Positions 3,250 to 59,835 of a stretch of 64,000 bases of DNA are shown here, piece by piece; the first letter of the stretch is position 1, and the number at the start of each line of letters is the position of its first letter. This stretch comes from Eunapius fragilis (lineage: Eukaryota; Porifera; Demospongiae; Spongillida; Spongillidae). The notes beneath the pieces are model-generated. The model searched no databases. It was not told the DNA's origin and saw nothing but the letters and a program-made list of their open reading frames with translations. The stretch covers positions 558,001 through 622,000 of the forward strand of contig OY811988.1 of NCBI GenBank assembly GCA_963681505.1. The letters are read 5' to 3'. The position numbers and the translations under genes are program-made.

Positions 3250-6200
3250 GTAGCTATCTATAAAACAGATTTTGAGAGAGAAAGAGCAGACCGGGAGCAT
3301 ATGGCAGGTGTCGTGGAAACTGAGAAGTCAAAAAATACATACAAACAACGACTTTCTCCAGGTGTACATGAGGATGAGAGCAAAAGACAGGCACAGATTA
3401 AAATTATGCATGAGGATTATCAGAGAGCCATACGAAAGATATCTGAACTTGACACTGAAATCGTTGATTTGAAAGAGATGATCAAGGCATTTAATAGTAA
3501 AGAGGAATGTTTAAAAAGGTCTTTAGAGGAAGCATCAGCTACTAACACGAAGCTGAGTGAAGACAATCAGGTTCTGATCCAGCAAGTAAGGCAGTACAAG
3601 AAGCAGTCAGATAACCTGAGATCTCAGGTGGATGAACTCAAACAGGCAAACAGTAGCCTAGTTCAGCAGGTATGTGCTGCACCATCTAAATGAATATGTT
3701 TGAGTAAGAGGGGGAAAATGAAAATGATAAAAAATAAAATAACCTAACAACTTCACTCCATGAATGTGGCCAAGGGAGTAAGTATACTGGTCCACTTCAA
3801 TCTCCTTATGGTCCATGAATGTGGCCAAGGGAGTATACTGGTCCACTTCAATCTCCTTATGGTCCCTCTTAGGCACAAACTCTGTGTAGATAAAGATTAT
3901 GAAGCACATGCATGTATAAATCTTTGTTGATTGATATACCACGGGGAACCAATTATTATTATGTAGGTTACAATTATTGTACCCTACAGTGGTGTTGTGG
4001 TGTACCCGCCGCAAGGGGGGGGAGGGGAGGAGAGTACATAATGTTAAGGCACCCTATCCCCATATAATCGGCCAGGCAAACCGTAATACAGGGCTTTAAT
4101 TTAAAAAATTTAATTTATCTTTTTTTTCTTCATAAATTACTCTTTTTTTTTACATACTGTACATGTATAAATGAACGCTAACTTCAATCGTTATTTTGAT
4201 GCCCCTGTTTTTTAAGGGCTGTTGGGGGTGTAATTGCCTGGCCACACCACCACTAGTAGTACCCCATTTAAATTGAATTTACATGTTTTCCAAAGCATTA
4301 ATGTCTTAAGACATTGCACATGTATCAATGAGGGGTCACCAGCTCAAAATGCAAGCATTCACAAATTAACAATTGCTTTGCAAGCCATTAACAGTGTAAG
4401 TGACTATTGCACACTCTAGGTACAAAGGCAAATGGCAGGACACGACTACTACACAATACACACACTGGAGGGTCTTGATGAAAGAAAGTTGTAGGTGGTG
4501 GATCATATGGAGCTGTTTATGAAGTCATGATGAATGGAACACCTTGCATTGCTAAGAAAGTCCATGACATTCTAGTAGGCCAGGGAGGTCATGTTCAAGT
4601 TGGAAGTGATGAAGTTAAGGCTATAAGAGAGAAATTTCGAGTAGAATGTTCACTCCTTAGTAAACTAAAGCATCCAAACATTGTTCAATTCTTGGGTATA
4701 TTTCATGATAAAGATGATGATGTGCTTCTAATGGAATACATGCCCATGGACCTAGCCAAGTGCTTAGAGACTTGTATAAGGCAGAAATACATCATTCCAC
4801 TTCCAATACAGCTGTCCATCCTCCAGGATGTGACCAATGGGCTGCTTCACCTTCATTCATTAGCTCCACCCATCATCCATCGTGATCTTACAGCAGCCAA
4901 CATTCTCCTCACATCTGACATGAGAGCTAAGATAGCTGATCTTGGAGTGTCTAAAGTATTTGATTTGAAACAAATGCAAACAATTCAGCACACCAAAGCC
5001 CCAGGCACTCCTGCATACATGCCCCCAGAGGCACTAATGCCAGAGCCCAAGTATGATGTTAAGTTGGACATATTTTCATTCGGAGTTTTATCTCTTTATA
5101 TAGCAAATCAGGATTTCCCTAGTCCTCATGAAGTACTACTGACCACAGGTGTTGTTAGGCAGAAAAGTGTACAGGTTGCTAAACGACAACATTGGATCAA
5201 TAAAATGGGAGAGGACCATCTTCTTTATCCTATAGTGGTCCAATGTCTGCAAGACCTTCCAGAGGACAGGCCTACTACCATGGAACTCTGGAAAGACATC
5301 AGCCCTCTGTGTTCTGAACATAAAATTGGTTGGAACAATATAATGGAGGTAAAGTGGCATGATTTTCAGGTATTTTTTTGCATTATATAGAAACTGGTGA
5401 CACTTCTTTAGAAGCATGGATAAGTAGTTACATAGGTGATGCAATGCATTCTGATTGAATTGACATTAATCCATTTCATGTAATAATGTAACAAATAGTT
5501 TCTACATTTTACAGAAATCCTCATACATTGTATGTAGAAATTATTTTGGCAACAATGCAAAATAATACATTGATTGCTTCAATTGAGTTATCTGCTTTTA
5601 TATGATTACATGTGCTCACATGGTATCAACTGTTACTCAGATAAATTTATGATACGTGTGCCTCTATGTCCTCATGGAAAATCTGTAGCTTCTTATCGAG
5701 AATGAAAACCTTAAGGTGAAATGTGGAATGAAGACTGAGACAAACAACCAACAGGTACCAGTAGTTGTGATAGTACAATGACTGATAAACACTTCGACAA
5801 TATAGTATATTTCACAAGTTCACTACATTGTATTGTTTCTGCTCTGCTACATATCAGGGCATGTCTACTAAAGTTCTGCTTCCATGAGATTTTCATGATG
5901 TGTACATGTACATTAATGATGCCAACACTTCAGTTTTAATCCTCATAGCCTTGTGTAGGTTCTTTGTTATTGTTCATTGCCCACTGCTGGCCGGAAATAA
6001 AATTACCAGAAGTACGATACTAACAACATTTACTGGCCACACAAATGGATGCAATGGACTATGCAGTCGCACTCCTATGTATATGTATACATATTAGGGA
6101 TCAGCGTTCAAAAAAATCTTCCACTTCTAGTTTGATCCTTTATATAAAGAACATGTAGTAATTATTATGTATCTCTAGTGCATGCTGTGTGCATGTTGCG

Positions 6201-7026
6201 TCTGTATTTACTATGGCTATGTTCCTTTTTCTATCAGCCTGACCCTCCCATACTGCCCCCACAACCTACAATCAATGACATAGACCCCCCCAAAGTGACA
6301 CCAAGTGCACAACAAGCCTACCAGGATAGTCAGGTCAGACAGCCAAACCACGAGGATCCATATGCACACCAAGGTATGGAACAGGTGGCCCCTGGATTCC
6401 CTCTGAGAACAAACCCACCCAATATTCCATCATTCCAAGGCTATGGTTACCAGCCATCACCGGTCTACATCACTGCACCTGAGCAGGTTCAAGGGAATTC
6501 ACAGTCACATCCATCAAAGCATCCCCCCAAACAGGGAACACAGTGTGAAGAGGATGATGATCTTCCACCCCCAATATTGCCCCCTTCTCACCAAAAGGCC
6601 CCCCAGAGCCGCTCGCCTGTAAAGGTGCGGGCTGCATCAGGGCTGCCTCACGGCTCCCCATACCAGCAGCCCCAACCACCAGGGAGGTATGCACACACCA
6701 ATGTGGACATAGCAAACTATGGTTCACAGGTGTATGATAACCCACACTACCAGCAGGGGTGGCAGCAGGCTGTGGATGCACAGGGATTTGTGAACCCTCA
6801 ACCTCGGCTTGGAACAAGTGTGCCTCAGTCTCATTGGCCTGTTCAAAGAAGTCCTTATGTGATGCCTAATGCCCAGCTAAATTGTTTGGGTGGTGAGATA
6901 TCATCAGTCTACACCCCTCCTGACCCATTCCTTAGATGTCCCATCTGTCAAAATGCATTTAGGAAGGGAGATATTGAAAACTATGAGCGTCATATTCAGA
7001 TATGTGGCCAATGGTCCCAGTTGTAA
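3250..7026 (+). CDS. L1: UBAN coiled coil - type 2 kinase - Pro-rich - C2HC finger protein (5' end not found, one shift)
   Basis: Visible exons are 3250-3669, 4420-5348, 5689-5754 and 6238-7026, all phase 0 with AG/GT borders. Exon 1 encodes a long coiled coil opening with the UBAN motif IYKTDFERERADRE. Exon 2 is the kinase. Exon 3 is a 22-aa coil beginning LLIENENLK. Exon 4 is Pro/Gln-rich, with DDDLPPPILPP and YDNPHYQQGWQQ, and ends in a finger CPICQNAFRKGD..H..QIC. UBAN and NEMO-type fingers bind polyubiquitin in NEMO, optineurin and ABINs; a cytosolic ubiquitin-responsive kinase is inferred. Unlike L2-L4, the kinase follows the UBAN. The kinase exon is one base short near 4489 compared with L7 and L8, which breaks the frame before the Gly loop, so this is either a recent pseudogene or an assembly error. 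The first exon was not found. Confidence 0.75.
3758..3866. repeat. Tandem duplication of about 54 bp in L1 intron
   Basis: Two adjacent copies beginning CATGAATGTGGCCAAGGGAG and ending CTCCTTATGGTCC. The first copy has a few extra bases (AGTA). It lies in the intron between the UBAN and kinase exons. Confidence 0.8.
4420..5348 (+). CDS. L1 kinase exon (TKL/RIPK-like, type 2)
   Basis: A single-exon kinase domain. Motifs in order: Gly loop GGGSYGAVYEV, the Lys in CIAKKV, hinge region MEYMPMDLAKCLE, catalytic HRDLTAANILL, DLG in place of DFG in KIADLGVSK, activation-segment end PGTPAYMPPEA, and the F-helix Asp in DIFSFG. All catalytic residues are present. DLG keeps the metal-binding Asp and is common in TKL kinases. 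From about 4497 the frame is open to the end. Upstream, the exon start at 4420 (VQRQMAGHDYYTI..LDERK) is in another frame because one G is missing near 4489; the homologous exons at 48989 and 59723 read GGT where this one lacks a base. Confidence 0.85.
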
Positions 7027-7854: not shown

Positions 7855-10845
7855 TCAATGTCTGCCGCAAGTCTCGGCATGGCATTTATATTTCTGAATC
7901 TCTCCCTTCCTAAATACAACACCACACACACGACACAGCAGGTTGGGGTCAAAAGGGGCACCATCGCATGACACATCCACGACTGGACCACTTTGGAGGG
8001 GTGAATGCCTCAAGCCATCATCCATCCTTTGCGCTATGCTATTGCTCTGTGCAGGTCCTGGTATGGATGTAGAGCATGGGAGTACTGATAACTAATTGCT
8101 GACCAGAGTGGAGGGGCACATTGCTAATTAACCCAATGTACATGTATTTACCTTGTACTCTGGCAGAAGCATGTTGCTGAATGTCTTTCCTCCCCATGCT
8201 GTGATGTGGGGCTTCAGTGAACGTAGGTATGGGTACACCATAGTTGTAGTCGATTGGAATAACCGACTGAAAATGCGAGTATTGAGCATAATGAGGTGGG
8301 GGTGGCTTGTAGGGGACTTCCCCATGACTCCTGCAATGCATCTGTTGGAAGGAAGTGGGTTCAAAGATGGGAGGAGGCAGGTCATCCCTGTCGTTATCCT
8401 GATCACCTCCAACAGGTTTGGGCAACATTGCAACTGATTGATACCCCCTGCTTTTGCTTAGAAGTGCAGGCTCTGGTTCAAGGGCCATGCCTTCAACACG
8501 GCTTGATAGTGTGACCTCCAGCACAGGGGGTACCTGATGGATTGCAGTTGGTTCTAAGTGACCAGGATGTGATACTGAATGATTAGAGGTTTCAACTGTA
8601 GTCACTTGTGTAGAATGGCACTGGGGTATAGAATATACATGTCAATTAATAAATTACAATACATGTATGTATGTTTAACTCATCCATGATTTGTATGTGG
8701 ATAAGAGTCAGTAATTGAAACAACCATCAACAACAAGAAATTAAAAACGTCTGAGACAATTGCAGGAGAATATTGTAACAACTTATTTGGTGCAAATCTC
8801 TGTGTCTGAATCGTATCTGAACCCAAAGTTACACTGAGCGGTCAAAGTGAGCTAAGACAGTTAAACGTGTCAGATAAGGAAATGGAAGGTAACAGTACAG
8901 AAGGCAGCTCCACGTTTATTAAATTAGAGCTTAAATTACAACATTGTACTGTACATGCATGTTTCCCATGTATGACAAAATGCAAATCCCTCCATCACAA
9001 TTATATTCCGTGTATGGAAATTGCATTCAAGAAAAGCTACATTACCTGTTGTTTGTAGGCCTCCACCTGCTTCTGGTACTGCTTCACCTGGGCCACCTTC
9101 ACTGCTATCTCCTCATTGGCTTCACGCAATTGTGACGTTAGTTCTGTCAATTGTTGTTTCAAAAGATTTTCTGTATCACTGAGGCGTTCCTTGACAACAT
9201 TCAGCTGGATGAATGTAATAACTGAGATGGTGTAGATGTAGGATTTGTGGGCACTGTTAGTGTAAAAATTAAGAAGTGGGGATTCATGCACCAGGAATTT
9301 TTCCCCCAGATATAAAAGACTGCGTAGTAATGATCAAGTATGAACTGATAAGTTAATGTATTTTTGTAAGTCATTAATAGTTTGTTTCAAATCCCTAGCC
9401 TGATGCATAATTTCCATAATCTCAGTGCAGACTGTTAGGATTAATTTTGTTACAAACAGTGTTCACAAATCCTACAACATCCATCTTCATTTGTTGCATG
9501 TAAGCTATTATAAAATACCGGGTCATAAGAATTAAATCATATTTCATCTTTGGTTTGCTTGGCAGCTTGCACTCCATGGCAAGCCACTTAATTGTACAGC
9601 CTCACTCTTTTGCCAGTTAATACTGCATACATGAACTGACTTCTATCCCATACCCACAATAACGTTATCCACAGACTGCTAGCTAAAACTTACTCAGTGC
9701 TGCAACAGCCACGGGCAATGAGCCTTTATAATAGACTGATAGGCCGTAGCCAAGGTATGGAGCCCCTTGTACAGTTGTAGACAGGGGACTACTACTATAA
9801 GCTCTTTTCATTGGATCTGGAGTGTTCTAGTATTGTGTCATTTATCAGGATATCTTTGTGATGGCCCAGGGGCTTTTGCAAGCCTCTTTATTACTTTAGG
9901 AATATTTTGGGTAGCATGACAATTCTTTCCTGTATCAAAAAAAGGGACAGAGCATTTACCTTACTGTCATAAACAAAGCTTGGATTGGAAACTTATAACC
10001 AAGTCTACCATGAGTGAGTTATAAGGTCAGTGATTCAAATGTGGTGAGCTTGAAATTCGTATTGAGTATAACTTTCATTCAGAAATTGATTCATCAAAAG
10101 GAATAAATTTTGGGGCATCTAAGTTCTAAATGTTCTGCAGCTAGTGCCTTTGAATATAGCCGCTATACTGCATTAATAATACAACAAAAAATGTATTAAA
10201 CCAATCGAATAACACTTATAAGAAATGGAAAGGTTGTTTTGGTTCAAGTGTGGGGACAAGGGTGCATGTCTACATTGTCTGGTGTTTCTTGTTTCACCAA
10301 GTATGTTGTACACATACAAACGTTGGTGATTGCTTGCTCTATTCATAATATGCTATCATAAGGTTAGTTGTACAGTATTCCCTTGATAGAGGAATTGGCT
10401 ATTATTAACACTTAAAATCCTAAATACTGTACTCCCTGATTTTGTTATAAAAAGGCTAGTTAAATACCAGAACTGATCATCTTGTGTAAATGGATTACTA
10501 CCATATGATGTCAAACCTGCTGCTTAAGCACTTTTACTTCCATTTTCAAACCTTCCTTTTCTTTTTGAAGTTGTTCTCTCTGTACAATAGACAAAATTAT
10601 TTTATAACATCTCATAAATATGCACCGAACAAACTGAAACACACAATCCCACACACACATCAGTGCTTCCCCGAGCACCTCCCTGTATTATTTTTGTTGA
10701 TTAGGCCATAACTGTCTTATGCAATCTGAGGTTCATGCTTCTCTAACACATTTAGCCTATACAAATCAATCTTTACCACTTATCTATACAACACTTGTAC
10801 TTGATAATAAACACCCACTCAGCACCAGACTCTGTGGGAAACCCT

Positions 10846-10900: not shown

Positions 10901-13836
10901 TTTATCTCTCTCTATAATCCCATCCCTGCAAAAGCAAAAGCTTACCTCACCACTCTTACAATTCATCATTGCCTTCTTATCACCATTTTGAAAATCCTTC
11001 TATTTGGTGGAATATTGGGTGCAGATTAAAATGTTCCTACTACCCTAGAAAAATTCATGTAGTACACGGTACCCTTTCAATAGCAAAAAACTGATCTGCA
11101 AATACTAGAACTGGCTGTCATGCCTGTATCAGACGTTTTCTGTAACGATTCAGCAGGAACTTTGCCAGCATCTCCCATTTCCCTAATTTATGATTGTTCT
11201 GTTAGTTGATGGCCCCCACAACTATATGACCATAATTACATTTATTTTCTCGCGTACAATTTCTCATAACATTAAAATTGTAAAATTCAAGCAAAATATA
11301 ACAAGTCTCTAAAACAATTAATATATTTTTTAGTGTATAGATTTTTTTTTTTAACTCCTGTTGCTGTAAAAACACCTAGTGCATTTGTTGCTGATACGAA
11401 CTTATGAAGTTGCTCATTGAAAGCTATCTGGTGTACTTTTAGGCTATACGTGAACAATTATTACTCGCAATGCCACTTCATTACTTTAGACTCACTGGGT
11501 ATGTAGTTAATATGTCACGATATTGCCTGGTAGGTAACTACATGTATTCATGGACTTTTAGCATCAAAAAAGGGTATTGAAAATCGATCATGTCCAACAA
11601 GTATCCAAAATTAGAATTAGAGAACCTGAGCCAATTTACTGTATGCACAAACATCTTAAGGTTAAAATCAATTATCAGCTATTTTGAATACTAGTAATGA
11701 ATTTATACGCACACTATGTGCATGAATGCAACTGAAATCTATACTTACCTTCGATATTTCTTCAAGCGTAGTTCTAAGTTGAAAAACCACTTCATCAGTG
11801 GTGCGTAGTTTATCAACCTGTAAGGTTTTAAGGTTTTGTCACAACTTCCTTCCTCTGACCCAATTCTAGTATTATGGTACCATATGATTAACAATAATTC
11901 AAATTGTAGTGTTCCATATAGTACATTAATACACACCATGTGATTTTTTAGTTGGTCTACCTTGGCTTTCAATTCATTTGTCAGTTTTTCCATGGCCAGC
12001 TGCATTTTGGTTTTGCTTTCTTCACATTCAAGCATGTGATGTTTAAGTTTATCCTCAGCCTGTATCCGTGCTGCAGCCTGATTGGTCCTGTCATCGCGCT
12101 CACGTTTGAAGTCTTCCGCATACACTTGCATCTGATGGAAATTCACCATGCAGCGTACCAATGGTTAAATATGTGTAGATTTCATGGTACCAAAACAATA
12201 ATAGCTTTGAACTTGATTATAATATATCAGATATTGAGCTGCATTTGTTCTAATCTACAACCTCATCAGTCAGTTACATCTGTTTGCCATATAAGGTCAG
12301 TGAAAACCAAATACAGCTAACAAACACAACACAAATGGATAGACCAAGCACAAACAGATGACGTTTAGTCACACAATAACTATACATCCAATATAAACAA
12401 AGAATTGCACTGTCTGTAAATAATGATCCATTGACTAACCTGTGCATTTTGGTCTTCAAGTTTCATTTTCAGTTCCTCTACAACTTTAGACAGCCTGCTG
12501 CTACATTCATTTGACTGTTAGTTTTGAATTTTGTGTACATTGCAATGTGAGAAAGCAGAAGTAAAGTAAAAGGTTGAATTCCATGATTCAAACATGAATA
12601 GATACAATGTAAACGGGCCAATCCTAAAAGTGAATAAGTAATGGGGCTTGTCCAAACGATTTTTGGAAAAATTAGCGTCATTGTGACGTTAGGGGGGGGA
12701 GGGGGGGGGGCTACGACGCTAAGAAAAATTTTATTGTCGCAAGTATGTTCTTGTTCAGAGGGGGGGAGGGTTAATATGCTAACGTCACAATAACGCTAAT
12801 TTTTCCAAAAATAGTTTGGACAAGCCACCCTAAGGAGCTTAGTAAACCAATTATACCTACATCTATTTCAAAGGTCTAGGAATAACTATATCAAGCTTAG
12901 TAATGGGTATTGAAACCTAACGTTTCACTTCCATACAAGCATCATATCTAAGGGATTGTTATACTTATCACTTACCATCAGCAGTTTCATATTTGAAGAA
13001 TGAGAGTTAAGTGGACATAGCTTTTGCAGGTGGTTGTTTAGTTCCATTGTGGTAGGCCTCCTTCCCTGGTCATGCTCACAGCACCATGTGACAATGCCAT
13101 GTAGAGACTTCATTTCTGGTAAATCGCTCAACTTTCTAATCTGCTCCTCTTTCTTTTCAGAGTACGAAGCTTTGGATTGGATACCCGTATAGAGGGCTAC
13201 TATTCCGAAACTGAAGATGTCTAGTTTATAATCATATTTCAGTGGTTTGATGCCGGCCTCGGGAGGCATGTATGCAAGAGCACCAGGAGCCGTGGAAAGA
13301 ATCGATTCATCGACACTATTACCAAAGTCAGCTATCTTCGCGTTCCAGTCTGGAGTGAGGAGGATGTTGGTGGTAGTGAGGTCGCCATGGATGATGGGCG
13401 GGGCGAAGGAGTGTAGGTACAGTAGTCCAGCGGATACGTCTCGAAGGACAGAGAGTTTGATCTGGAGGGGGATGTTGGGGTAGGCTTCCAAACACGACTC
13501 CAGGTTTGTGTCCATCCTTTCCATCACCAGGACGAGGTCATGATTGTTCGGGTCGTTCCCGAACTCGACGCCAATAAACTGAACGATGTTGGGATGTCGA
13601 AGCTTGCTGTGCAGAACGCATTCCCTAACGAACCTGGTTAAAAGTGCGCCCGACTGTTCCCTTGGCACGGCCTCGTATATGCCCCTTCCCATCAAAATGT
13701 TGTGCAGGCTTTTAGCTACGCAGGGTGCACCGTTGTAGGTAATGCCATGGACTTTTCCAAACGCACCTTTACCGACTGGCATCACCTCTGTGTCCGGCCA
13801 AACTACCTTTATTCGGTACGGTCGTAATTCATCCAT
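7855..13836 (-). CDS. L2: type 1 kinase - coiled coil - UBAN - Pro-rich - C2HC finger protein
   Basis: Inferred exons (minus): 13836-12976 kinase, 12514-12440, 12131-11937, 11817-11749, 10579-10517, 9204-9046, 8620-8152 and 8057-7855, giving about 697 aa. All borders are phase 0 except the last intron, which is phase 1 on both sides, and the frame closes exactly. UBAN: VYAEDFKRERDDR, opening the exon at 12131. The exon at 9204 ends with the shared coil KVAQVKQYQKQVEAYKQQ. The Pro-rich exon has RDDLPPPIFEP and PHHSMGRK. The last exon has FDPNLLCRVCGVVF..H..TC then stop. The layout is an N-terminal RIPK-like kinase joined to a NEMO/ABIN-like ubiquitin sensor; the function is inferred from domains. 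Small exons could be missed in the 12.5-13.0 kb and 9.2-10.5 kb introns. Confidence 0.85.
10848..10899. repeat. (CA)n microsatellite in L2 intron
   Basis: About 26 uninterrupted CA dinucleotides. Confidence 0.97.
12643..12830. mobile_element. Short inverted-repeat transposon (MITE) in L2 intron
   Basis: The ends are inverted copies: CTTGTCCAAACGATTTTTGG on the left, and on the right TTTTTCCAAAAATAGTTTGG followed by ACAAG. The pairing continues inwards through TTAGCGTCATTGTGACGTTA and its inverse, and the middle holds poly-G. There is no coding capacity. The element at 23702-23922 has related ends. Confidence 0.8.
12976..13836 (-). CDS. L2 kinase exon (TKL/RIPK-like, type 1)
   Basis: A 287-aa first exon. 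Start MDELRPYRIKVVWPD is supported by the same start in L3 (MDELRPYQIK), L4 (MDALEAYKIQ) and L6 (MEDLSQYRVQ). Motifs: VGKGAFGKVHG, Lys in CVAKSL, IIHGDLTTTNILL (HRD Arg replaced by Gly, catalytic Asp kept), ADFGNS, ALAYMPPEA, DIFSFG. It ends at donor ATG/GTAAGT. Loss of the HRD Arg suggests activity that does not rely on activation-loop phosphorylation. The sequence is nearly identical to the L3 kinase. Confidence 0.9.
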
Positions 13837-13849
13837 TAGTAGCGTCGGC

Positions 13850-13912
13850 AGTGGGGAGTGGTCGGCAAAATAGGGTCGGCCACTCCCCTCTGACGGCCAC
13901 TCCCCACTGCCA
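13850..13912. repeat. Palindromic insertion just upstream of the L2 start codon
   Basis: GGCAGTGGGGAGTGG and its inverse CCACTCCCCACTGCC flank a GC-rich core that contains a further inner copy (GGCCACTCCCC). The edge is about 14 bp from the L2 ATG, so it lies in the 5' UTR or core promoter. L3, whose kinase is almost identical, lacks it. Confidence 0.7.
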
Positions 13913-13943
13913 ACTATACCCTACGCTACCCTAGTCCAAGGAC

Positions 13944-16450: not shown

Positions 16451-19400
16451 TCAGTTCTTTTTTGACTGCAAATTGACTGCTGGGACATCTGAGGTATGAG
16501 CAACGACAGGTGTAGACTGACGGTAGTCAACGTTTGACCTGGGTGCCGGATATCTGATTACATGTGGAACATCACTGGTCTGGCTAAATCTTGGATCATT
16601 GACAGCTTGCACAACGTTGTGAACAAGCCACTGAATCTGAGGCAGACTTGTTCCAGGCTGGGGGTTCACAAATCCCTGTGCGTTCACAGACTGCTGCCAC
16701 CCCCACTGGTATTGTGGGTTGTCGTACACCTGCGGACCATAGTGTGCTGCATACCTCCCTGGTGGTTGGGGCTGGGACTGGTACAGGGGGAAATCATCCA
16801 CTTCACTCCCCTGCTCCTGTGGGGATTGATATGCTGGTGATGACTGATGACCATGGGGAGTATATGATGGGTCGAATGCGGGTTGTCCCACAACATGGGG
16901 TGGATGGGGGTGCAGGGCCGGTGTTGTATGGTCAGTCTGCCAGAAAATATAAAAACATCTGTTTGAAAGCAACCTGCGAACACACAATTGCACATGCACA
17001 TAGCTGCAGGGTTCACTCAATCTGTGTGTAGTACACTTGTACCCTGATTCAATGACATTTCTACCAGGGAGTGGCAGATGGTTATAATATTAGTATGCTA
17101 TTGCAGATGCCACATCACCCTTACAATTTCGGGATGACATATGCTATGCACATGATGACAAATAACTGTTCTCACATCCAGTTGTGTGTGTGTGAATTCT
17201 ATGAGATTGAGATGATATTTGTATGTTTCATATTTTGCATTGATTTATAACCGTTTAGTACAGTTACATTTACGTGCATGGATATTAATAACGGTGAATT
17301 GGTGTTACAGGTCAGTATATTTCCATTGCCATATCTGAGCGTATAATTGATTACACATGATGATAAAATGTCAATAATTTGCACCCCCACAGCAAGCCTC
17401 TTCAAAACCAAGGGGTCCTGTTTAGCCTATACATTACCATGTGTACAGATAATGCTATGGTGATACAACAGGCAGACTTATTCTGCCTAACAGTTACTGA
17501 AGATATCTTCTTAGCTCTATTAGTTAATATTCAACAAATATATAAGAGGCGATTTCAATAAGTCCTGAAAGTGGTTGTTTACATGTTTACATGTACAAGG
17601 ACATTTCTGGGCACACGGGTAAATAATGCACAATGTTATAGTGATGCCACAGCCCGGCAGCAATAATGCACCTACCCTTTTCTGAACCTCTTCACGCCTA
17701 GTGAGGATGTCAACCTACAGTAAATGCATAACATAAATCAGATGCCTTAATTCTCTTCAAAAATATCTCTTGCCTGTTTTTTGTAATTCTCCACCTGTGT
17801 CTGATACTGCTTCACCTCGGACTCCTTCACTGCTACCTCCTCTTCTGCTTCCTCTATCATTTGCACAAATTTTTGTGTCTGAGTTTTTATTAACCTCTCC
17901 AGGTCTGCAAGTATAGCTTTATGCTGAGTGAGTTGGCTTTGCAATGTGTGGTCAAGTTCCTTTTTCAGTTTTTCCATATTCTCCATTGCTCTTGTCCTGT
18001 CAGTTCTCTCTGTGTTAAAGTCTTCTAAATAAGTGCTAAGCTATTGAGAAACTGCAATTTATCATGTTGACATTCATATCACACATTACCTGCATTTTCA
18101 GGACTTCAACTTGTTCCTTTAGTCCTTCATTTTCCTGCTGTAACCTCATAACATCTTTGTGTACATGTAACTGGCCCTCGGTGGTGTGGTCTTCCATTGC
18201 CTTAGAAAACAAAAGGGTATACAAACATGTCATAAGAAAGATTTTATATTATGGGAGTCTACGACAAGGAAACATCAGACTTGACAAAGGCTTTTTAAAC
18301 ACACAAACCTCTGCCAACTGATACTTGAGTTTCTCCTCATTCAACTTGGCTATCTGCTTCCGTAGAATTACCGCTTGGTCTTGGAGAGATAGTTGATTTA
18401 CCTGATATAAAATCAAAATTAAAATCACATGCACATGAATGAAATAAAGAATTCATACCACTTGTGCCGTATGAAGGTTTTAAATTTATGCATACAGATG
18501 CAATGGTAATACATGCAAGTGTTAAAGACATACGTCATACCTCCTCTGACAGTTCCCATCCTCCAACGTGCAGCGATGGATCCTGTTGATGTGCTACATG
18601 GGTACCCAGACCATCCAGTCTGTTCTGAAACGTGTCACACTTCCTTTCCAGTTCCTGACGAGCCAGCATGCTCTCGTTGAGCTCCCAATGCAGCCTGTGT
18701 ATCTCAGAGACGTGGCTCCCTTCCAATAGTTTGTAGTGAAAAATCTGAGCGTTTTGTTCACCCAGCAGCCCCTCCATACGGCTATGGGTGTTGGTCCTGT
18801 CAGAGGCCACATGCGAGCTTTCACTTTCTGAGCCAAAGGGATCGCCTGATATGTGCCCCTCTCCCGCATCAATTTCATGGATCCTTGATACACGGTCATC
18901 CATTGGCACGTGCTGATGTGCGTGCATCTCAATCTCCTTAGCGACACCCTCTGAATAAGGTTCCTGTGTCATGGTAATATAATATTTCGTGCATGAACAC
19001 ATAACATGGTTTCAAGCTCTAGAGCTGTTTTGCTTTCACAGCGAATGCACAATAAATACCCCCAACAGCCCAATTACCCCCCCCCCCCCCCCCCCTCCCC
19101 ACTTCAGCATAGCCCACTTTACTGCTGCTACATGCCCTATATCTGGTGTTCCCAGTATCATCAATTCTAAACAACACTCTCAGAGTACTATTATGGCATT
19201 GAAGTAATATATTTTACAAACAATGCAATCAATTGCTGAAATGCAAGTTGAGCAAACATTTCCATGCAGTAATTAATTACTAATACAAGAGATAATGACC
19301 ATCCTTGATCTTTGGTATTGTATTTAAGCTTTGGTGTTTAAGCTCTTAATGGTTTTATGTTTTGATCTTTGTGGATAGATTAGATATTGGTGCATGGTTT

Positions 19401-23922: not shown

Positions 23923-24122
23923 TAATATCAATCGGGAAGTCGAAGGAGGCTATATAGCTATAGATGGTAGATCCATGTCATGATTTTGAGAACAGTGATA
24001 TTGGGGGTATCGAAAAGTTGGTTTTAGGTTTGTTCATAGGGGGCTCGGATTGGTAGGCATTTGCAAGGTTTCGGCATGTACCCTCCCACAACGACAACAA
24101 TAAGAAAAGGGCGGAAGAGCTA

Positions 24123-30900: not shown

Positions 30901-30928
30901 GCGCCACTCAGAAATGTGCATGCAATGA
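24123..30928 (+). CDS. L4: type 1 kinase - coiled coil - UBAN - Pro-rich - C2HC finger protein
   Basis: Inferred exons: 24123-24974 kinase, 25626-25799, 28033-28230, 28418-28663, 28837-28890, 29649-29882 and 30083-30928, all phase 0, about 867 aa. UBAN: TYEEDFERERNDRVRIAQ at the head of the 28033 exon. The 29649 exon ends with KVAQVKQYQKQVEAYKQQ. The last exon is rich in His, Pro and Gln with DVPHHSMGRRYFEP, an NEQSRYAPLDPNLTCPAC finger, the pair RKGEIQKFKRH..MC, and a stop. It is the most complete copy of the full architecture and is probably expressed. A ubiquitin-binding scaffold and kinase in one chain is inferred from the NEMO/ABIN families. The 2.2-kb intron after 25799 holds simple repeats only. 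Confidence 0.9.
26546..26600. repeat. 12-bp tandem repeat in L4 intron
   Basis: About four copies of GGTATCCTAGAA, the last ones diverged. Confidence 0.85.
27615..27650. repeat. Poly-G tract in L4 intron
   Basis: A long G run in the 2.2-kb intron. The surrounding 26.0-28.0 kb has no recognised exon. Confidence 0.85.
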
Positions 30929-42799: not shown

Positions 42800-43118
42800 A
42801 CTGCCTTTTGACGTCACACATTGTTTACATATGCATGCTTTAGATAAATTCCTGATCGTTACCAAAGATAATATGTTATCTCTGCCGCTACGTTAGGGGG
42901 GTGACTGCTCTCTGCCCAGAAAGTACTAGTGCCCTTGACCGTACCGGTATACCCCTCGGCCCCAGTGGCGTAGTGTGGTTGTTGAGCGCCCGGGGGCATA
43001 ATGCAATTATGGCGCCCCCCCCCCCCCCCCCCCCCCCCAGGGGCGGAGGTGGATCTAGGATTTTGCAGCGAGGGTTGGTATGCAGCCGCAAGGGCAGAGA
43101 GGGATGTGCCGGTGTAAC

Positions 43119-47420: not shown

Positions 47421-47423
47421 ATC

Positions 47424-49115
47424 TATCCAGTGCATCATCTGAAGTATGTGCACCAGGCACAGCAGAACAAGTTCAAGAAGTACAGTATGATGTGCGGCCC
47501 CTTGCCCCGGGTCCATTTTGACGGACATGGGTTGCTGCGTTGTTAAAACCACCCATTCCTTCTGCAAATGTTTACTGTTGCCATTCAGAGGTGCTGCATC
47601 AATTTTGGGAACTTTGACCTCTCCTTTTAATTAATTTTATAAATAATTTCATGTTGGTAAAACAAATACCACTTGTAGTAGCAAAAATTGCTGTTAAAAC
47701 CATACAAACTTGCACCTACAAAACAAATAAATTTTACACCAGAGAGCAACAACTGATGATGCAGAATGAACATCCCAAAGCTCACCCTGGGCACGACATG
47801 GAGGCTCAAGCTGAAAGAAATGGGAAGCTGTATGTTAGAATCAATTATATACATTGCTATATCATTCACACTGCAGTATAACCATGCATCTGTTGAAATA
47901 TATAGTTATACGCCAAAGTATAGAGCAAAATCATATTGCGATACTGGTTCAGAAAAGAATGCTTATTGTAGGAGGGAATTACCTGACGGCTCTCAATATT
48001 TTTTCTCGACATCAAGCACACCACTGACTATTACAATAGAATTTTCAACCTCCTTCATAAGAAGCTGCACAGAGTGCATGGTAAAAAAGATTACATTATG
48101 TTAATGTAACATTGACAGTTAAAAATACATCAGTCATACTACTTGCCATATTACCACTGACAAAATATGTCACTGCAAAGAATCAGAAAACTATATGCTT
48201 ACAGCTAGTATCGACTTATCAAACAGTTACATGCACATGTGATTGTTATAATTAGAAGACATTTGCATTAATAATACCTCCAAAATATTGCTCCAACCCT
48301 TTGGGTGCTCAGTAGACATACACCGTACATCTTCCCAGAGTTTCGTGGTAGTAGGTCTGGCCTCTGGAAGGTCTTGCAGACATTGGACCACTATAGGATA
48401 AAGAAGATGGTCCTCTCCCATTTTATCCATTCAATGCTGTCATTTAGAGATCTGCAAATCAAATACTTTAGACACTCCAAGGTCAGCGATCTTAGCTCTC
48501 ATGTCAGATGTGAGGAGAATGTTGGCTGCTGTAAGGTCACGATGGATGATGGGTGGAGCTAAGGAATGAAGGTGACGCAGCCCATTGGTCACATCCTGGA
48601 GGATGGACAGCTTTTGGAAGTGGGATGATGTATTTCTGCTTCATACAAGTGTCCAAGCACTTGGATAGGTCCATGGGCATAAATTCCATTACAAGCAAAA
48701 TTTCACCTTTTTCACGATATACACCCAAAAACTGAACAATGTTTGGATGCTTTAGTTTACTAAGGAGTGAACATTCTACATGGAATTTCTCTCTTATATC
48801 CTTAACTTCATCACTTCCAACAGGAACATGACCTCCCTGGCCTACTAGGATGTCATGGACTACCTTAGCAATGCAAGGTGTTCCATTCATCATGACTTCA
48901 TAAACAGCTCCATATGATCCACCACCTACAACCTTTCTTTCATCAAAACCTTCCAGTGAACGCACTGTGTAATAGTCCTCTGTAGCCACCTGATTTTGTA
49001 GATAAAGATGTACATGCATATAAATTGAAATGAAAGTCAGTTAAATAGTTACTATACATATAACATAATAATATTAACCCTTCACTGACCAGCCCCTCAT
49101 CCCTGCTGTCACTGT
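47424..49115. repeat. Segmental duplication, copy 1 (pair at 58038-59835)
   Basis: About 1.7 kb covering the L7 second-kinase exon, its short last exon and flanking DNA is repeated at 58.04-59.83 kb in the same orientation. Shared non-coding words such as CATCTGAAGTATGTGCACCA and CACATCAGTCA at matching spacing show duplication of the block, not only of the exon. Confidence 0.85.
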
Positions 49116-52100
49116 AGAACTATGGATTATGCTTCAAAATGCTTCTAAACTCTTTCTAGAAGGAATTAGCATAGCAATTAATATACATGTGAGTATACCT
49201 CCATCATCTGGCGTGCTGTCCCTTCTCTGAGGACATCAGTCATACATTGCTTAAAGTCTGCTACTTCTTTCTCAGCAGCAGCAAGCTTGGATTTCACCTC
49301 AGCTATTTCCTGTCTTGCTGCGCTAAGGTCTTTAATAAGGCTATCCCTCTCCCCTGCTGCTTGACTTCTGTCGTCTCTTTCCTTTTTGAAGTCATCAGCA
49401 AATGTATCCCTCTATACAGCACACATGTGTAAGTGTTCAGGATATACATGATCACGTATTGCACATGCAATGAACACAATAACAGGATGACTGCACATTC
49501 TACATGTACCACCAGTACATGTACCCTGCACATTACAACCTAAAATACCTCAGCTGCAGTTACTTCAAATCTAGAAAGAAGACTTTGATAGGAGTCTTCC
49601 ATTGCCTTCAGTTTCTCCTCAGAGTTTCTCAATTTCTATGCTACACCATTCATACATGAGGATGAATCATCACCTGATACTTCAGCAGGTCTATACGCAG
49701 CTTCTGGGTTTACCTTTCAGAATATTAAAGCGGACAAGAAATATTTAATTGCTTCATATAAGTACAGTGTCATTGAGTGTCACTATGTACCTCATGAATT
49801 TCATCTTTACGGCATTTCATCACTTCAGGGTTTGCCATTTTCCTTTGAAGGTCACTGATCACCTTATTCTTAGACTCAATGATACGTTTTAAGGTAGATT
49901 TGTTCTCTTCCGATGAAGTAATCTGATCTGTCAGGGAGGTTTCACTTGTGCTATGCTTACTAGATGGCTTTGACCTCCCTTTGAGGCATTCATTCTCCAC
50001 TTCTAGCTGACTTATTTTCTCTGTGTAGTCCTGCTTCTCTGCATCATTCCTTGCTATTACTTCCTTCATTGCCTAAAGATAAGCAAATGCAAATACATGT
50101 GCATCAATGTATGCTATACATGAATTCAGGTAACATGTAAAGTTGCAATAATGAAGTTCAGACATAGGCACCAGGCTGCCCATGAATTACACAAGCACAG
50201 AAAACTATTGTACTAATCTATCATGTTAAAGTATTTATGTGGGATAATGTAAATAATATAAACATCACAAACATAAAACATCTGGCCTGGGAAATGATCA
50301 AATGCCTTAAGCCTTCGGCCCAGGCAAGGCTCAGGTTGTACATTTAGGCCAATGACATGAGCAGCATCAGTCACATGTGCACGTAATGGCTGAACGTAGG
50401 ATGGCAAATTGAATTAAGATGGCAATGAAGCCAAGCCATGAAAATGAATATGGTTTCTGTAGCAGATCCAACATTTAATGATAGCACAGAAGTTTTTGGA
50501 GATAACAAATATGTAGCATGAGAAGTGCACTTTTCGCTGCCATTCCTGACATTTGCATATGTAGATCTGTGGTTAATTCGTAACTCCGCGTGTCATGCAA
50601 TAGACCCCCCCCCCCCCCCCCGCCCTCCCCGCCCCTCCATCCGCCAGTGGGTACACCATCATAACTGTCAAACACTTATATAATGTTGCAGCCTCTGTAG
50701 ATCTATGCCCAAGACCAGAGGTAAAGGTGGGATTCTATTATATCCTTTCATTGCGCTTCAGCTGATTGATGATGTCAGAACACGGTGACAAAGTCTTTGA
50801 AACAGTAACTTGGAGCACATGGTTGAAAAACCCTGACATAAGAAGGCATCCCCACACAGCGTGCCCTGGTGTCAAAACGAGCAGTTTTTTCATCATCATG
50901 CCTGCCCATTTTCTGAATTGATGCCTCTTGCACTATTTTATCACTGAGTTAATAATTTATAAGACACTGACTTTTTAATTATCCATGCAAACATAGCTTT
51001 TCTTTTGGTGGCAACGATCCAGATAGGAAACAACTGATCAATGCAAACTTGTGTTTTCATGTGGCTCCATGCAGTAGTTATGCATGCATTTACTCAAGGC
51101 AAGCTTCACACAATTCAGCTCAGAAACTGGGCACCAATTGGAAGGGTTTGCTTATTTTCAGGTTGCTATGTGCAGGATAAAAGCCTGACAATGATGGTAA
51201 TATTAAGGATACAACATCAGCTAATATCAAGGTACACTTATCAGTACATTTGGAAAATGTCAATAATGAGAAATTCGTTAATCTTTATTCCCCAATTGTC
51301 CTTGTTTAAGTACAGCACTCCTTACGTAAGGACTGTTTTCAAGTTGTAAACACCTCAAGGTCTCAGTACCCCATACCATAATGGAGGGAGTTGATTGTAT
51401 TCAATATTAAGTCAGCGGCTTGGGGGGGGGGGGGGGGGGGGGGTACATCCCCAGTTGAATGGCGTTTTGGAATATCTTTGATTTGTCACTACAGTAATTA
51501 TGAAGCATGTCAGCAGAAAATGCATTTTAAATGCTTTTCCCTGTGGTCACCTATCCACCTATGCACACAATGGTAAAAAGACTGGCTATTAACCTTTCAT
51601 GGACAAGGAGGAAAAACCTTACTTGATATTTCTCATTAAGCTTATCCATCTGCTTCTTAAGTCTGTCCACTCCTACCTCCATGCTTCTCTTTTCCAACTC
51701 CCTTTAAATGATTTCACTGTTCATTATGCTGGGACACACGCACAAACAAACAACATTTCTACAACTTCAATTTTAATTGCATGCACTTGTGATTCAAAAT
51801 GTGGTTGGAATGCTATTTTAAATGTTGAAAATGGTCAAGGAATCATTACATTCTCAAGTTCAAACATGAGACATTATATTTCAGGTTGGCAGTTGGGGTG
51901 GTGGGGGTGGGGGGTTATGGTGTAATTTACACACCATAATACACAATTTGCTGTGTATTTTAAAAAGTAAATATTCCCATTACCAAGACAATGTTCCAAA
52001 TTCGAAACGTGAATCAATCATACAACCCATTCTAGTATATGCCATGAGTGAGGAACCAAAACATTTATAAAAGAATGCAATATGGCCCTTCCTATTTACT

Positions 52101-52211
52101 TACTTCCTTGTACAGATGTACCATATCCTTGTATGGAAGTGGGTTGGCAGTGCACAGCAGTGTTTGAAGGTGATTATTTAGGTTGCGTGAAGAAGGTCTT
52201 TTGTTTGGATC
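47993..52211 (-). pseudogene. L7: decayed duplicate of L6 that ends in a type 2 kinase
   Basis: Remnants in gene order (minus): type 1 kinase tail 52211-52104, coil about 51700-51626 (its 3' splice site deleted), coil 50072-49786, exon 49713-49570 with an in-frame TAG at 49638-49636 where L6 has GAG, UBAN exon about 49415-49198 (TFADDFKKERDDRSQAAGE), type 2 kinase 48989-48278, and last exon 48064-47993 ending EKKY. The second kinase has a two-base shift after CMKQKYIIPLP and lacks about 190 bp including the PPEA region. A P-like transposon begins at 52211 and replaces most of the first kinase. The gene is dead, but its layout shows an ancestor with two kinases around one UBAN. Confidence 0.82.
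49198..52211. repeat. Segmental duplication of L6 (pair at about 39560-42060)
   Basis: Introns and exons of L6 from the UBAN exon up to the kinase tail are repeated here in order and orientation, including non-coding stretches such as CCTTAAGCCTTCGGCCCAGG near 40619 and 50305. The copy stops abruptly at the P-like transposon. Confidence 0.88.
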
Positions 52212-53086: not shown

Positions 53087-56000
53087 ATGTTTCGACGAGG
53101 ACGATTGTCAAGGAAACGCAAGCTCGAGCACAAAAGGCGCCAATGCAGTGGATTTACTGTCTCCATTGGGATTGATATTTGGAAGAATACCAGGAGGGCC
53201 CATCTGCAGCAGCAACTGAGTGAAGTAACTGTTGTGCAGACACTGCTTCCTCCAGGTAATGAACTATATGCTAGGTGTAGTGAGTACAATAAGTTATATT
53301 TTCAATAGGGTGGTTCAGAGTTGGTGATGGTGCTTTTGGCAAGGTGGACAAAGATCCTGATGGTATTTTGAGGTTGTCTCGATGTGTGGTCTTCAGTGAA
53401 AACATGGAATGGCATGTGCAGGTACGAGTCCAGCAGTATAAGATTTCATGTTGCATACAAATGTCTACAATTTGTTATAGGTTGATGGCAAGCAACTGAA
53501 CTCATCTGTGCCTACTTTGAGCCAGGCTCCTCAGTGTTGTACATCTATTGAGGATGTCAAGACACTTCTGAACTTTGTGCATTCTTGTCATCTGTGTTGT
53601 GGAAATAGTGATGAGAAGTTCATTGTCTATATTTCAACAAAGAATGGAAAGATAATGAATGCCTCAGGTAAGTACTCCAGTGGAAAAAAATATGGTGCAA
53701 TGATCCCACTGTTCTATTATGAAAACCGACAGGTAATGAGTGTGTGGCTTACTTGGACTCCTTACACTCTACGATTCGCCATGCTGAGTGTGAGATTCTA
53801 ATAACACCAGGGGAGGATGGTCATCACTGCTGTAGCAGGTGTAAGGCATACAGATGCAATCTAAGAACCTTAGTTAGCCGCCATGAGTAGCATGCATCTG
53901 ATACCAGCTGCACTGATCCCAGTAGTCATGCAGCCTTCTCACGCTTAAGTTCTCCTTTGAAGTGCACTCGTTATCACCAAGAACATGCACTACGAATAGC
54001 TTGTCAGCGTCAAGTCACCAATCTTAAGAAGAAACTTGAAGCAGCGATCGATGAAAGTGGGCTCATGGTGTCAAGCAGTTTACATGATGACCTTGTACAA
54101 ATCATGAAAGATAATGCTGAGGTAATTTGCACAACTCATCCACCTGGGACCTTTGGGCGTGTATTTTGGGAAGCTCAAATGCAAGCAGCTTCAGTCAAGG
54201 ATTCCAAACAGATGCAATGGGACCCTGTTATGGTGCGGTGGTGTCTCTATTTGCGCCATCTTTCCAGTTCAGCTTATGAGATGTTGCGAGAAACAGGAAC
54301 CATAAGCCTTCCGTCGCAAAGAACACTTCAAGACTACACTTACCACATCAAAGCTACGGTAGGATTTTCTGACGAAGTGGACAAGCAACTTGGAATTGAT
54401 GCAAAAGTAGCATCTTGTGTGGAACGAGACAAATGTGTCATTCTCATTTGTGATGAGATGCACATCCGGCAGGACCTTACATATGACAAGCACACAGGTA
54501 GGCTCAGCTGAATGTGTCCATGCTTTTTAAGCAAGCATACTGATTGTTCAATAGGTGCACTGACTGGGTTTGTTAACATTGGCGACATCAACCAGCACCT
54601 GGCTGAATATGAGAAGCAGTTAACAAGCGACGATGGCATCCGGAACCCTCTCGCCTCATCAATGCTAGTATTGATGGTCAGAGGACTGTTTACACACCTC
54701 CAGTTCCCCTATGCTCAATTCCCATGTACTGAATTGTCAGGCAAGTTTACATTTCTGTGTCGGTGACCTGTTTTGATATTATCCACAATGTAATAGGAGA
54801 CCAACTCTTTCCTATTTTGTGGAATGCTGTGTCACGGTTGGAAAACCTGGGGTTCTTAGTCCTTGCTCTATGTTGTGATGGTCTGTCTGCCAACAGGAAG
54901 TTTTTCAGACTACATGATACATGTTCTAGCACAGCAGTATACAAAGTTATTAATCCCTATGCCCATGATGGGGATAAACGTTACATTTTTTTCCTGTCCG
55001 ATCCACCTCACTTGGTGAAAACTGTTAGAAACTGCTGGGCAAACAAGAAACGAAAATTATGGGTATGTAATACATGTATTATGTGCATTGTAAAAATGAA
55101 ATGTATTGCCCATGTTTAGTGCAATGGAATGGATATATCATGGGATCATCTAACGGAACTCTATACAAAGAACAGGGCACAGGCTGATGACACTGGCTTA
55201 GCACTCATACCGAAGCTCAAGTATGAACATGTACATCTTACAAGTTATTCTAAAATGCGTGTTGACCTTGCAGCTCAAGTAAGGATGATTGGTGTTCCCG
55301 TTACAACGTACATGTTCCAATCATCAATGTATCTATACCTTGTTACATCCAGGTTCTCAGCAGTTCTGTAGCGAAAGGCCTAACACTGTTTGTAGGAGCC
55401 AAAGCAACACAAATGGCATATTTTGCAGAAATGTTTGACAAATTTTTTGACTGCCTGAACAGTTCAAGTCTGTCTGCAGGCAAGCTATCCAGAAATCCTT
55501 TTAGATCTCCATACAGATCAGGGAATGACTGGAAGCTAAAGGTACACTCAGATTTGACAGCAATAAAATACATTATACACTTTGTGTTAATAAATTACAG
55601 TGGCTAACAGATGTATTTCTGCCATATCTGGATGAGTGGGAGGAAAGTGTGGATAGAAGAGAAGGATTCAGTCCCTCGCAAAAGAACATGATGATGCTTA
55701 GTAAACAAACAAGAGAGGGTCTGAAGCTAACTGGTAAATGACAAAAGAAAATGTATGCTTGTAATTGAAGTTAAACTGAAGTTGCTTTTTCTTCAGTGAT
55801 GGCATTTGTAGAACTGGTGCAGTACCTGTTCACAATCCCAGGTGTTGGAGTGTTTCTGAGCAATAGGATTTGCCAGGACCCATTGGAAAATTTCTTTGGA
55901 CGACAGCGCCAACGAGGCAGGGCCAATGGGAACCCATCATCCTCTGAGTTTGTTCGAAACACACAAGCATTAAGAATTATATCGAATACATGTGGAACCA

Positions 56001-56149: not shown

Positions 56150-57113
56150 TTACTGCTTAGGACAAAGTTCACTTCGCAATGCCCTAGTCTTTGACATAGT
56201 TTTATGTTGCGCCTGTTTATAAAGTTCCATGCAAGAGCTTGCAAATCCAAAACCTCTAACAGTGACGTATAGGCTCACAATTCGCTGCAGCACCAATTTT
56301 GACACGTCCTCTTCAACCTGTGCAGCAATGATGCACCACTGAAAGAGTAAGTCATTGTTGCCAACTATAGCCTCTACGCATGTTGCAGCACCTTCTATTC
56401 TGTTGGAAGCAAGGGTAAAATGTCTTCGTATGAGATCTTCCATAATCAGGAATATGTCATACGCCTGATTATTTACTGTCCACAAACCCCCTCGATTTAC
56501 CAAGTCTACCCATTCTTCACTTTCACAAGAGCTGATTCCATCACCAGCAAACTCCATCACGAAACACATCATTTCCTTCTTTTTTGGGTGTGATCCCGAT
56601 TCTATTTTTTCATACACTGTACGGATTATGTAGCCAGCTACGTACCACAAGGCACATCTTTCTTGATGAGTTAATGGACGCACACATTCAGAATCAGAGA
56701 CACTAACAGCACTGTTGACAGGAAACTCAAGTTTGATCAAGATGTCAAAAATGTGTTGGGTCACAAACTGGTAAAATGCTGGGAATGCCTTCAAATGAAC
56801 TGTTTTCTGAATGAAGTCCTTCCAACTTTGAACAAATGTATCTGATGTTCTGAGGCGTTGGTACGAACTCCAGAAGCGCTCTTTCCTCAACACAATACTG
56901 GTGTGTTTGCAGGCAAAGCATGCTTGCAGCCTCACAACAAGTACATGGGCAAACCAGGTTAGTTGTTCTTCATTGGACATTGACTCCTTCCACCAATCTC
57001 TTAATGCTAGTGATGTCCTAATTGCTGCACACGTGTACTTTGACTCAACCTTGAAAGCTGTGTCTGTCTGTACTGCCTCAACAGCAACCTTAAAATACTC
57101 AGCAGAACCTTAG
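56150..57113 (-). CDS. Second gene of the P-like element, function unknown
   Basis: The open frame runs from about 57113 (acceptor CTAAG) or from the ATG at 56980 to a stop at 56150, at least 276 aa. Phrases such as QHIFDILIKLEF and TxQERxALWYVAGYIIRT resemble an uncharacterised protein found next to transposons in sponges and cnidarians, from memory. It is transcribed towards the transposase and the two stops are about 60 bp apart. No catalytic motif recognised. An upstream exon is likely if the AG at 57114 is used. Confidence 0.6.
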
Positions 57114-58037: not shown

Positions 58038-59835
58038 AGATACAATCTATCCAGCACATCATCTGAAGTATGTGCACCAGGCACAGCCCATTCATTCTGC
58101 AATTGTTTACTGATGCCATTCAGAGGTGGAATGCTACATCAATTTCGGGAACTTTGCCTACAACCCCTCTCCTTTTAATTAATTTTATAAACAACCTCAT
58201 GTTGGTAAAATTACAAATACCACTAGTAGCAAAAATTGCTGTTAAAACCATACAAACATGCGACCTACAAAACAATAAATTTTACACCAGAGAGCAACAA
58301 CTGATGATGTAGAATGAAAATCCCAAAGTTCACCCTTGGGCACGACATGGAGGGCTCAAGCTGAAAGAAATGGGAAGCTGTATGTTAGAATCAATTATAT
58401 ACATTGCTATATCATCCATTTACAGCAGAATAATCATCTGTTGAAATATGAAATTGTACGGCAAAGTATAGAGCAAAATCATCTTGTGTTACTGGTTCTA
58501 AATAAAGCACACTTATTGTAGGAGGGATTACCTTATGGCTTTCAATTTTTTTTCTTGACATCAAGCACACCACTGACTATCACAATAGAATTTTCAACCT
58601 CCTTCATAAGAAGCTGCACAATGTACGTGGTAAAGATTACATTGTTACATTGTTAATGTAACATTGACAGTTAAAAACACATCAGTCACATTACTTGCCA
58701 TATTTAGCACTGACATATGCCACTGCAAAGAATCAGTATACGACTTACATGCACATGCAATCATTATAGCTATAATGCATTTGCATTAATCGAAGATTAT
58801 ACCTCCAAAATATTGCTCCAACCCTTTGGGTGTTCAGTGGACATACACCTTACATCTTCCCAGAGTTTCCTGGTAGTAGGTCTGGCCTCTGGAAGGTCTT
58901 GTAGACATTGGACGACAATAGGATAAAGAGGATGGTCCTCTCCCATTTTATCTATCCAATGCTGTCGTTTAGAGATCTGTATTCTTTTCTGCCTAACAAC
59001 ACCTGTGGTCAGTGGTACTTCGTAGGGGTCAGGAAAATCCTGGTTGGCTATATATAGAGCCAACACTCCAAATGAAAAGATGTCCAACTGAACATCATAC
59101 TTTGGCTCTGGGATTAGTGCCTCTGGGGGCATGTATGCTGGAGTGCCTGGAGCTTTGGTCATTTGCTTAACTTTCAGCACTTGTTTCAAATCAAATACTT
59201 TAGAAACTCCAAGGTCAGCTATCTTAGCTCTCATGTCAGATGTGAGGAGAATGTTGGCTGCTGTAAGGTCACGATGGATGATGGGTGGAGCTAAGGAATG
59301 AAGGTGAAGCAGCCCATTGGTCACATCCTGGAGGATGGACAGCTTTATTGGAAGTGGGATATTGTATTTCTGCTTCATACATGTGTCCAAGCACTTGGCT
59401 AGGTCCATGGGCATGTATTCCATTACAAGCACATCATCACCTTTATCATCATATACCCCCAAAAACTGAACAATGTTTGGATGCTTCAGTTTACTAAGGA
59501 GTATACATTCTGATCGAAATTTCTCCCTTATAGCCTTAACTCCATCTCTTCCAACTGGAACATTACCTCCCTGGCCTACTAGGATGTCATGGACTTTCTT
59601 AGCAATGCAAGGTGTTCCATTCATCATGACTTCATAAACAGCTCCATATGATCCACCACCTACAACCTTTCTTTCATCAAAACCTTCCAGTGAACGCACT
59701 GTGTAATAGTCTCCTGTAGCCACCTGATTTTGTGGATAAAGACGTGCATGCATATAAAATGAAATGAAGATATATAACGTAATATTAACCCCTCACTGAC
59801 CAGCCCAACATCCCTAACACCTGCTGTCCAGGGTG
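58038..59835. repeat. Segmental duplication, copy 2 (pair at 47424-49115)
   Basis: The more intact copy of the block around the type 2 kinase. Its right border is near 59835, where the match to 49115 ends and AACCGATT-rich repeat DNA begins. Confidence 0.85.
58542..59723 (-). CDS. L8: type 2 kinase exon plus last exon; upstream exons not in window
   Basis: Kinase exon 59723-58803 begins after CAAAATCAG with VATGDYYTVRSLEGFDERK and runs open to GGAG/GTATAA. The last exon 58613-58542 (phase 0) encodes LLMKEVENSIVIVSGVLDVK and stops. Kinase motifs all intact: GGGSYGAVYEV, Lys in CIAKKV, HRDLTAANILL, KIADLGVSK, PGTPAYMPPEA, DIFSFG. The exon needs an upstream exon: the ATG at 59753 lies before the splice acceptor and is probably intronic. 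An LTR retroelement lies just upstream, so either the 5' exons are beyond 64 kb or this is an orphan duplicate. It is the best-preserved type 2 kinase here. Confidence 0.75.

Follow-up and report, generated by a model that had tools for sequence, protein, structure and literature searches.

A 64,000-nucleotide stretch of the genome of the sponge Eunapius fragilis (contig OY811988.1, here C18, positions 558001–622000; the whole stretch analyzed is called the window) carries a set of tandemly repeated modules. Dozens of tandem sponge genes of this kind appear, as read from DNA, to join a protein kinase domain to the ubiquitin-gripping coil (UBAN) of NEMO and the ABINs. In vertebrates, kinase activation on polyubiquitin needs several proteins to meet, and the kinase and the ubiquitin-gripping coil are on separate proteins. 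The explanation that we favor, and hold to be somewhat better than an even bet, is that the window holds members of a gene family that has expanded in sponges and encodes single-chain 'UBAN kinases', which polyubiquitin would cluster. The modules, their order, exons that can be joined, the same fusion in gene models of Ephydatia muelleri, and the clustering are all directly observed.

A six-frame motif scan of the window found seven UBAN motifs (3259+, 12087−, 17996−, 28042+, 32808−, 39693−, and 49367−) and five C-terminal fingers (6937+, 7867−, 30851+, 31665−, and 36732−). Both patterns were composed after viewing the sequence, and the finger pattern was narrowed for the shuffle test, in which 200 dinucleotide shuffles gave no UBAN and no narrowed-finger matches, versus the seven and five of the window. 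Pfam was searched with 16 proteins (E to 0.01) and 29 open reading frames (ORFs; E to 0.1, with one list showing 25 of 35). Seven window ORFs were above the gathering score for a kinase (4482–5387+, 12928–13920−, 19738–20628−, 24057–24980+, 41954–42892−, 48540–49040−, which is partial, and 58800–59792−), with E-values down to 1.1e-38 among the window kinase ORFs. A same-strand kinase exon is in reach at six of the seven UBAN loci; the 32.8-kb locus has none. The initial annotation, made from the letters of the window, had described seven UBAN loci, five of them with a C-terminal finger and six joined to a TKL kinase; these counts were reproduced, and the Pfam kinase search it had named as a check was positive.

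Two kinase types are present: kinase A, modeled from its own ATG and carrying HGDLTTTN, and kinase B, carrying HRDLTAAN and IADLG. Gene models were built by hand, with exons chosen by eye and by homology. The models of genes D, G, and E in the window, and of gene H outside it, have exons that are all multiples of three in length, GT-AG junctions, and no internal stop.

Gene D (42799–36723, minus strand) joins nine such exons into a 710-amino-acid protein. Its order is kinase A (41963–42799), coil exons and a UBAN plus zipper exon (39477–41577, the latter exon at 39737–39477, FADDFKKEREDR), then three small exons and a proline tail with the finger (36723–38373, finger exon 37112–36723). The last exon was set at the downstream AG, which is in frame; a start at the upstream AG is out of frame. 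A CT-rich repeat at 37190–37680 (minus) directly precedes this exon and may be its polypyrimidine tract. Gene G (24123–30928, plus strand) has seven exons encoding 870 amino acids in the module order of gene D: kinase A (24123–24974), UBAN (YEEDFERERNDR, 28033–28230), zipper (29649–29882), and a proline-rich exon with the finger (30083–30928). Gene E (33736–31653, minus strand; four exons, 267 amino acids) encodes a UBAN-zipper-finger protein without a kinase and resembles the E. muelleri protein P0125.

The remaining loci fit less neatly. Gene C (minus strand) joins similarly into 754 amino acids, yet requires a GC donor; it comprises a kinase A exon (19777–20628), a UBAN plus zipper exon (YLEDFNTERTDR, 17774–18034) with the would-be GC donor and an AG acceptor two codons upstream of the modeled start, and a proline-rich last exon without the finger motif (16451–16936). 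Gene B (minus strand) fits apart from one doubtful small exon (12478–12440, no AG at its start): its kinase A exon runs from ATG to a GT donor (12976–13836) and is followed by the UBAN exon (YAEDFKRERDDR, 11937–12131), the zipper exon (EEIAVKVAQVKQYQKQVEAYKQQ, 9046–9204), and the proline-rich and finger exons (7855–8620; 8620–8152 and 8057–7855), with the finger exon joining in frame. Gene A (plus strand) has the order UBAN, kinase B, finger, with a UBAN and coil exon (YKTDFERERADR, 3250–3669), a kinase B exon with a frame change near its start (4420–5348), a small coil exon (5689–5754), and a proline-rich exon with the finger (6238–7026).

Several observations bear on whether kinase and UBAN belong to one chain. 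The kinase ends are phase-0 donors and the coil exons phase-0 acceptors in genes D, G, and H. Gene H (locus L018) gives a complete 834-amino-acid model of six exons in the order kinase A, coil, UBAN, kinase B, short tail. Its exons recur in the same order at locus L031, with AG/GT at the match edges; the UBAN match there ends short of its donor. On another contig, C1, kinase A (L034), coil, UBAN, and kinase B (L019) are again found at about 55–76% identity, with kinase B split across two frames and HGA in place of HGD in kinase A.

Related proteins point the same way. In these searches, at most 8,000 candidates were scored per query, one search gave the best 120 of 309 matches, and 165 proteins were listed in all. 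Among the matches listed, the closest named relatives at the window loci were E. muelleri proteins, and kinase and UBAN motifs occurred together in 8 of the 165 proteins, 7 of them named E. muelleri proteins (P0001, P0022, P0026, P0035, P0126, P0127, and P0136). P0026 (674 amino acids) reads kinase A-UBAN-zipper-finger, and P0035 reads UBAN-kinase B-zipper, with the UBAN ahead of the kinase as in gene A. P0024 (488 amino acids, on a 2,219-base contig) carries coil, UBAN, and kinase B in a single unbroken frame; it is probably a spliced cDNA, since the same exons are split by an intron in this genome (gene A), the alternative being an intronless gene. UBAN-kinase proteins came from Ephydatia and the source of P0024 only, among the matches listed; the Halichondria panicea kinases P0044, P0052, and P0086 were not among the eight proteins with both motifs (best 120 of 309 matches). 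Two metagenome proteins, P0007 (984 amino acids) and P0008 (925 amino acids), have three kinase domains in tandem per chain. According to the account in PMC7385117, the Ephydatia models were made by AUGUSTUS, with RNA-seq used for training, so the Ephydatia fusion proteins are predictions. The one-chain reading that the initial annotation had put forward thus has indirect support from the phase-0 junctions, from an order shared by loci whose spacing differs greatly, and from gene models made independently: the parts can be joined by phase-0 introns and the same fusion occurs in Ephydatia models, which are themselves predictions.

The window covers part of a longer cluster, which spans about 0.8 Mb and contains 50 UBAN/zipper exons. 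Searches of the same genome (219 Mb, 24 contigs) gave at least 51 matches to the UBAN-zipper exon, 50 of which lie within C18:17222–801087, and at least 35 matches to the finger, 32 of them on C18; these counts are lower bounds, and many UBAN-zipper matches cover just the zipper part of the query. At least 8 kinase A and at least 25 kinase B matches, some of them fragments, were found on C18, where the family occupies approximately the first 0.8 Mb of a 6.26-Mb contig. Our map of the cluster contains all 50 UBAN/zipper and 32 finger matches of C18 along with kinase matches (8 of type A, 25 of type B), and leaves out cross-type kinase hits, short second fragments, a weaker kinase match at C18:770784, and C18 matches past 0.85 Mb. 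The repeated cluster of the initial annotation thus extends well past the window. Elsewhere, two loci on contig C6 (L020, 5251–7293, and L021, 4674–7187) each have three tandem UBAN exons and a CPICGRK finger, with no kinase match nearby in the genome searches with the two kinase types, and are perhaps conventional NEMO/optineurin-like genes. On contig C12, a UBAN exon (YKADFSQERRDRETLAE, L022, 4697–4732) has kinase B-like exons 8–17 kb off. In view of the C6 sites and the C12 exon, the fused genes probably supplement other NEMO-like genes and are not the only such set.

In a 21-row kinase tree, all 12 rows of the kinase A type, of which 9 come from this genome and 3 from Ephydatia, grouped in one clade (100/100, with a long-branch warning). 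Against PDB, among the best 60 rows, kinase B of gene H matched TNNI3K (88.7 bits), IRAK4 (85.8), CTR1 (85.2), RIPK3 (71.0), and RIPK2 (68.3), and kinase A of gene G matched TNNI3K (71.6), CTR1 (65.5), and RIPK2 (54.0). The label 'RIPK-like', given to these kinases in the initial annotation, was therefore dropped: TNNI3K, CTR1, and WNK1 rank above the RIPKs for both kinase types, and IRAK4 does so for kinase B. By sequence they are generic TKL kinases, and 'TKL kinase' is the safe name.

A rival reading is that the proteins act as decoys or inhibitors, dampening signals in the manner of ABINs and using the kinase domain mainly as a docking surface. ABIN1 is the best PDB match of the coil, and some kinase domains are degenerate: in gene D and two close copies the glycine loop is altered and the alpha-C glutamate is missing (E to A in gene D), gene D itself has NFG in place of DFG and so looks like a pseudokinase, and the kinase of Ephydatia P0127 is degenerate as well. 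We nevertheless consider this alternative rather unlikely, as the glycine loop, K, E, HRD, N, and DLG are intact in six of seven kinase B rows (the exception, P0035, has an altered loop), and kinase A of genes B, C, and H retains the lysine, alpha-C glutamate, catalytic Asp, Asn, and DFG. The same five features are kept in kinase A of gene G, where PPEA is changed.

The coil itself is supported by sequence profiles as a real UBAN of the NEMO/ABIN type, as the initial annotation had proposed. A 13-row coil profile matched ABIN1 (7e-8), NEMO (3.1e-6), ABIN2 (1.1e-5), and optineurin (0.0028) in PDB; the top 17 of 25 rows were one of these four proteins, the next being apolipoprotein A-IV. Changes at D311, E315, and R319 of NEMO impair ubiquitin binding, as described in PMC11854354, and the D/E/R spacing of the sponge motif equals that of these three residues. 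Pfam CC2-LZ matched five window UBAN exons at E 6e-7 to 5e-4 (the 28.0- and 49.4-kb exons were outside the scan).

Several results count against the favored explanation. All five of these CC2-LZ matches, which the initial annotation had named as a check, are below the curated cut-off (best 30.2 versus 35.3 bits), as are the seven matches in the whole genome (best 32.1 bits) and those in the scanned Ephydatia proteins (33.4 bits in P0001), and a single UBAN exon gave no match in PDB at E 0.01. P0130, from outside the 13-row alignment, has an altered motif (ENF..ER..DK), and the kinase B members P0006 and P0020 combine a kinase with the zipper and have no UBAN motif. The ratio of nonsynonymous to synonymous change (dN/dS; Nei-Gojobori on paralogue pairs, with few differences and no significance test) was 0.58, 1.21, and 1.07 for the cc2 linker exon, indicating little or no constraint. 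For kinase B it was 0.98 and 0.87 in two pairs, both involving a stop-bearing copy, and 0.30 in the third; the copy at 108892–109812 has a stop and a dN of 0.37 and is perhaps out of frame, so it says little. Two window kinase copies are broken: the 4.4-kb exon of gene A and the locus at 52.2–48.3 kb (48275–52211, minus strand), which keeps a kinase A tail, coil exons, UBAN (49411–49196), and kinase B and is interrupted by a stop and a frame change.

The weak Pfam scores and the loss of the motif in P0006 and P0020 would fit a coil that descends from a UBAN but has lost ubiquitin binding, its one role being to dimerize the kinase. This we regard as improbable: the motif residues D, F, E, R, D, and R are unvarying in all 13 rows, against a mean column identity of 27%, although this invariance is weaker than it looks, because the rows were selected by the motif.

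Still less probable, in our view, is that the cluster interleaves separate neighboring genes, some for kinases and some NEMO/ABIN-like, whose exons are not spliced to each other. The kinase-free gene E would be one such gene, the joining of kinase and UBAN exons is read here from genomic sequence rather than RNA, and past the kinase A donor the frame runs to a stop after 2 (gene G), 3 (gene D), approximately 13 (gene C), or 16 (gene B) codons, so a kinase-only product is possible. Against separate genes stand the phase-0 donors and acceptors of genes D, G, and H, the exon order repeated at L018, L031, and contig C1, the fused Ephydatia models, and the unbroken frame of P0024. That the cluster is mostly a graveyard of recent tandem copies and transposons with few working genes is very unlikely. 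In its favor are the broken copies at 4.4 and 52–48 kb, the retroelement and transposase pieces, and the stop-containing matches of the genome searches; against it are the open models D, G, E, C, and H, relatives in a second species, and dN/dS values below 1 in four of four kinase A pairs (0.26–0.53) and three of three UBAN pairs (0.24–0.87).

The finger was harder to place. Its profile matched PDB weakly (best E 0.027; UBZ fingers of NDP52 at 0.039 and of TAX1BP1 at 0.15), with no row named NEMO, and its Pfam matches were weak and scattered; a NEMO-type finger is at most a candidate reading. Overall, the initial interpretation held for the UBAN coil, the joinable chain, and the tandem expansion, and not for the RIPK-like label.

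At the end of the window, a kinase B exon (58800–59723, minus strand) has its nearest upstream UBAN exons outside the window, at 68–72 kb, beyond a retroelement pol ORF (RNase H and integrase; 60600–62858, minus), which we take to be of the gypsy type. P-element/TNP-like transposase pieces lie at 53891–55604 (plus), and a 319-amino-acid ORF at 56150–57109 (minus) matched no Pfam family.

Known systems resemble these genes in part. ABIN1 and the other TNFAIP3-interacting proteins give the best coil match, but the kinase appears to be on the same chain in the sponge proteins, and ABINs are not known to carry a kinase. NEMO/IKKgamma and optineurin share the UBAN residues and the order coil, UBAN, C-terminal finger; unlike NEMO, the sponge proteins have a kinase attached and only a weak finger profile, and the N-terminal IKK-binding family of NEMO was not among the Pfam matches listed. 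With the RIPK family they share a TKL-type kinase domain; death, CARD, and RHIM families were likewise not among the Pfam matches listed for the 29 ORFs and 16 proteins. Gene H and L031 may be likened to JAK-type tandem kinases in having two kinase exons, one with HGD for HRD, but their UBAN coil sits between the two kinases. A kinase-UBAN fusion was not found described among the matches listed in the literature searched (titles and starts of abstracts, with subscription literature mostly outside, which is no proof of absence). The available text of a 2026 review of holozoan NF-kB (PMC13042239) nowhere mentions NEMO, and that of a NEMO comparison paper (PMC10694592) has the word 'sponge' once, in the reference list.

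Under the single-chain explanation, a TKL kinase domain would be joined, mostly via phase-0 introns, to a coil bearing the UBAN; the other parts are a zipper specific to the family, a proline-rich tail, and, frequently, a C-terminal finger. By analogy with NEMO and ABIN, the UBAN coil would dimerize and dock on M1/K63 polyubiquitin, and binding of the chain would bring two kinase domains together, so that each could activate the other or phosphorylate clients bound to that chain. The copies whose kinase is degenerate (gene D and P0127 of Ephydatia), like gene E with no kinase at all, might serve as ABIN-like scaffolds or dampers. Placing the pathway in innate immunity or in stress is guesswork, by analogy with the protein families.

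More tentatively, and at slightly less than even chances, this sponge lineage may carry a large repertoire of self-contained kinases activated by ubiquitin chains, including the kinase A-UBAN-kinase B form, that diversified in the manner of an immune receptor family. If so, the sensor, switch, and enzyme of a NEMO/IKK or RIPK kind of system would be one molecule. A one-chain version that an early-branching animal has multiplied into dozens of copies would offer a simple system for studying the switching of kinases by ubiquitin chains. It would also mean that sponges elaborated a branch of NF-kB-type signaling in their own way.

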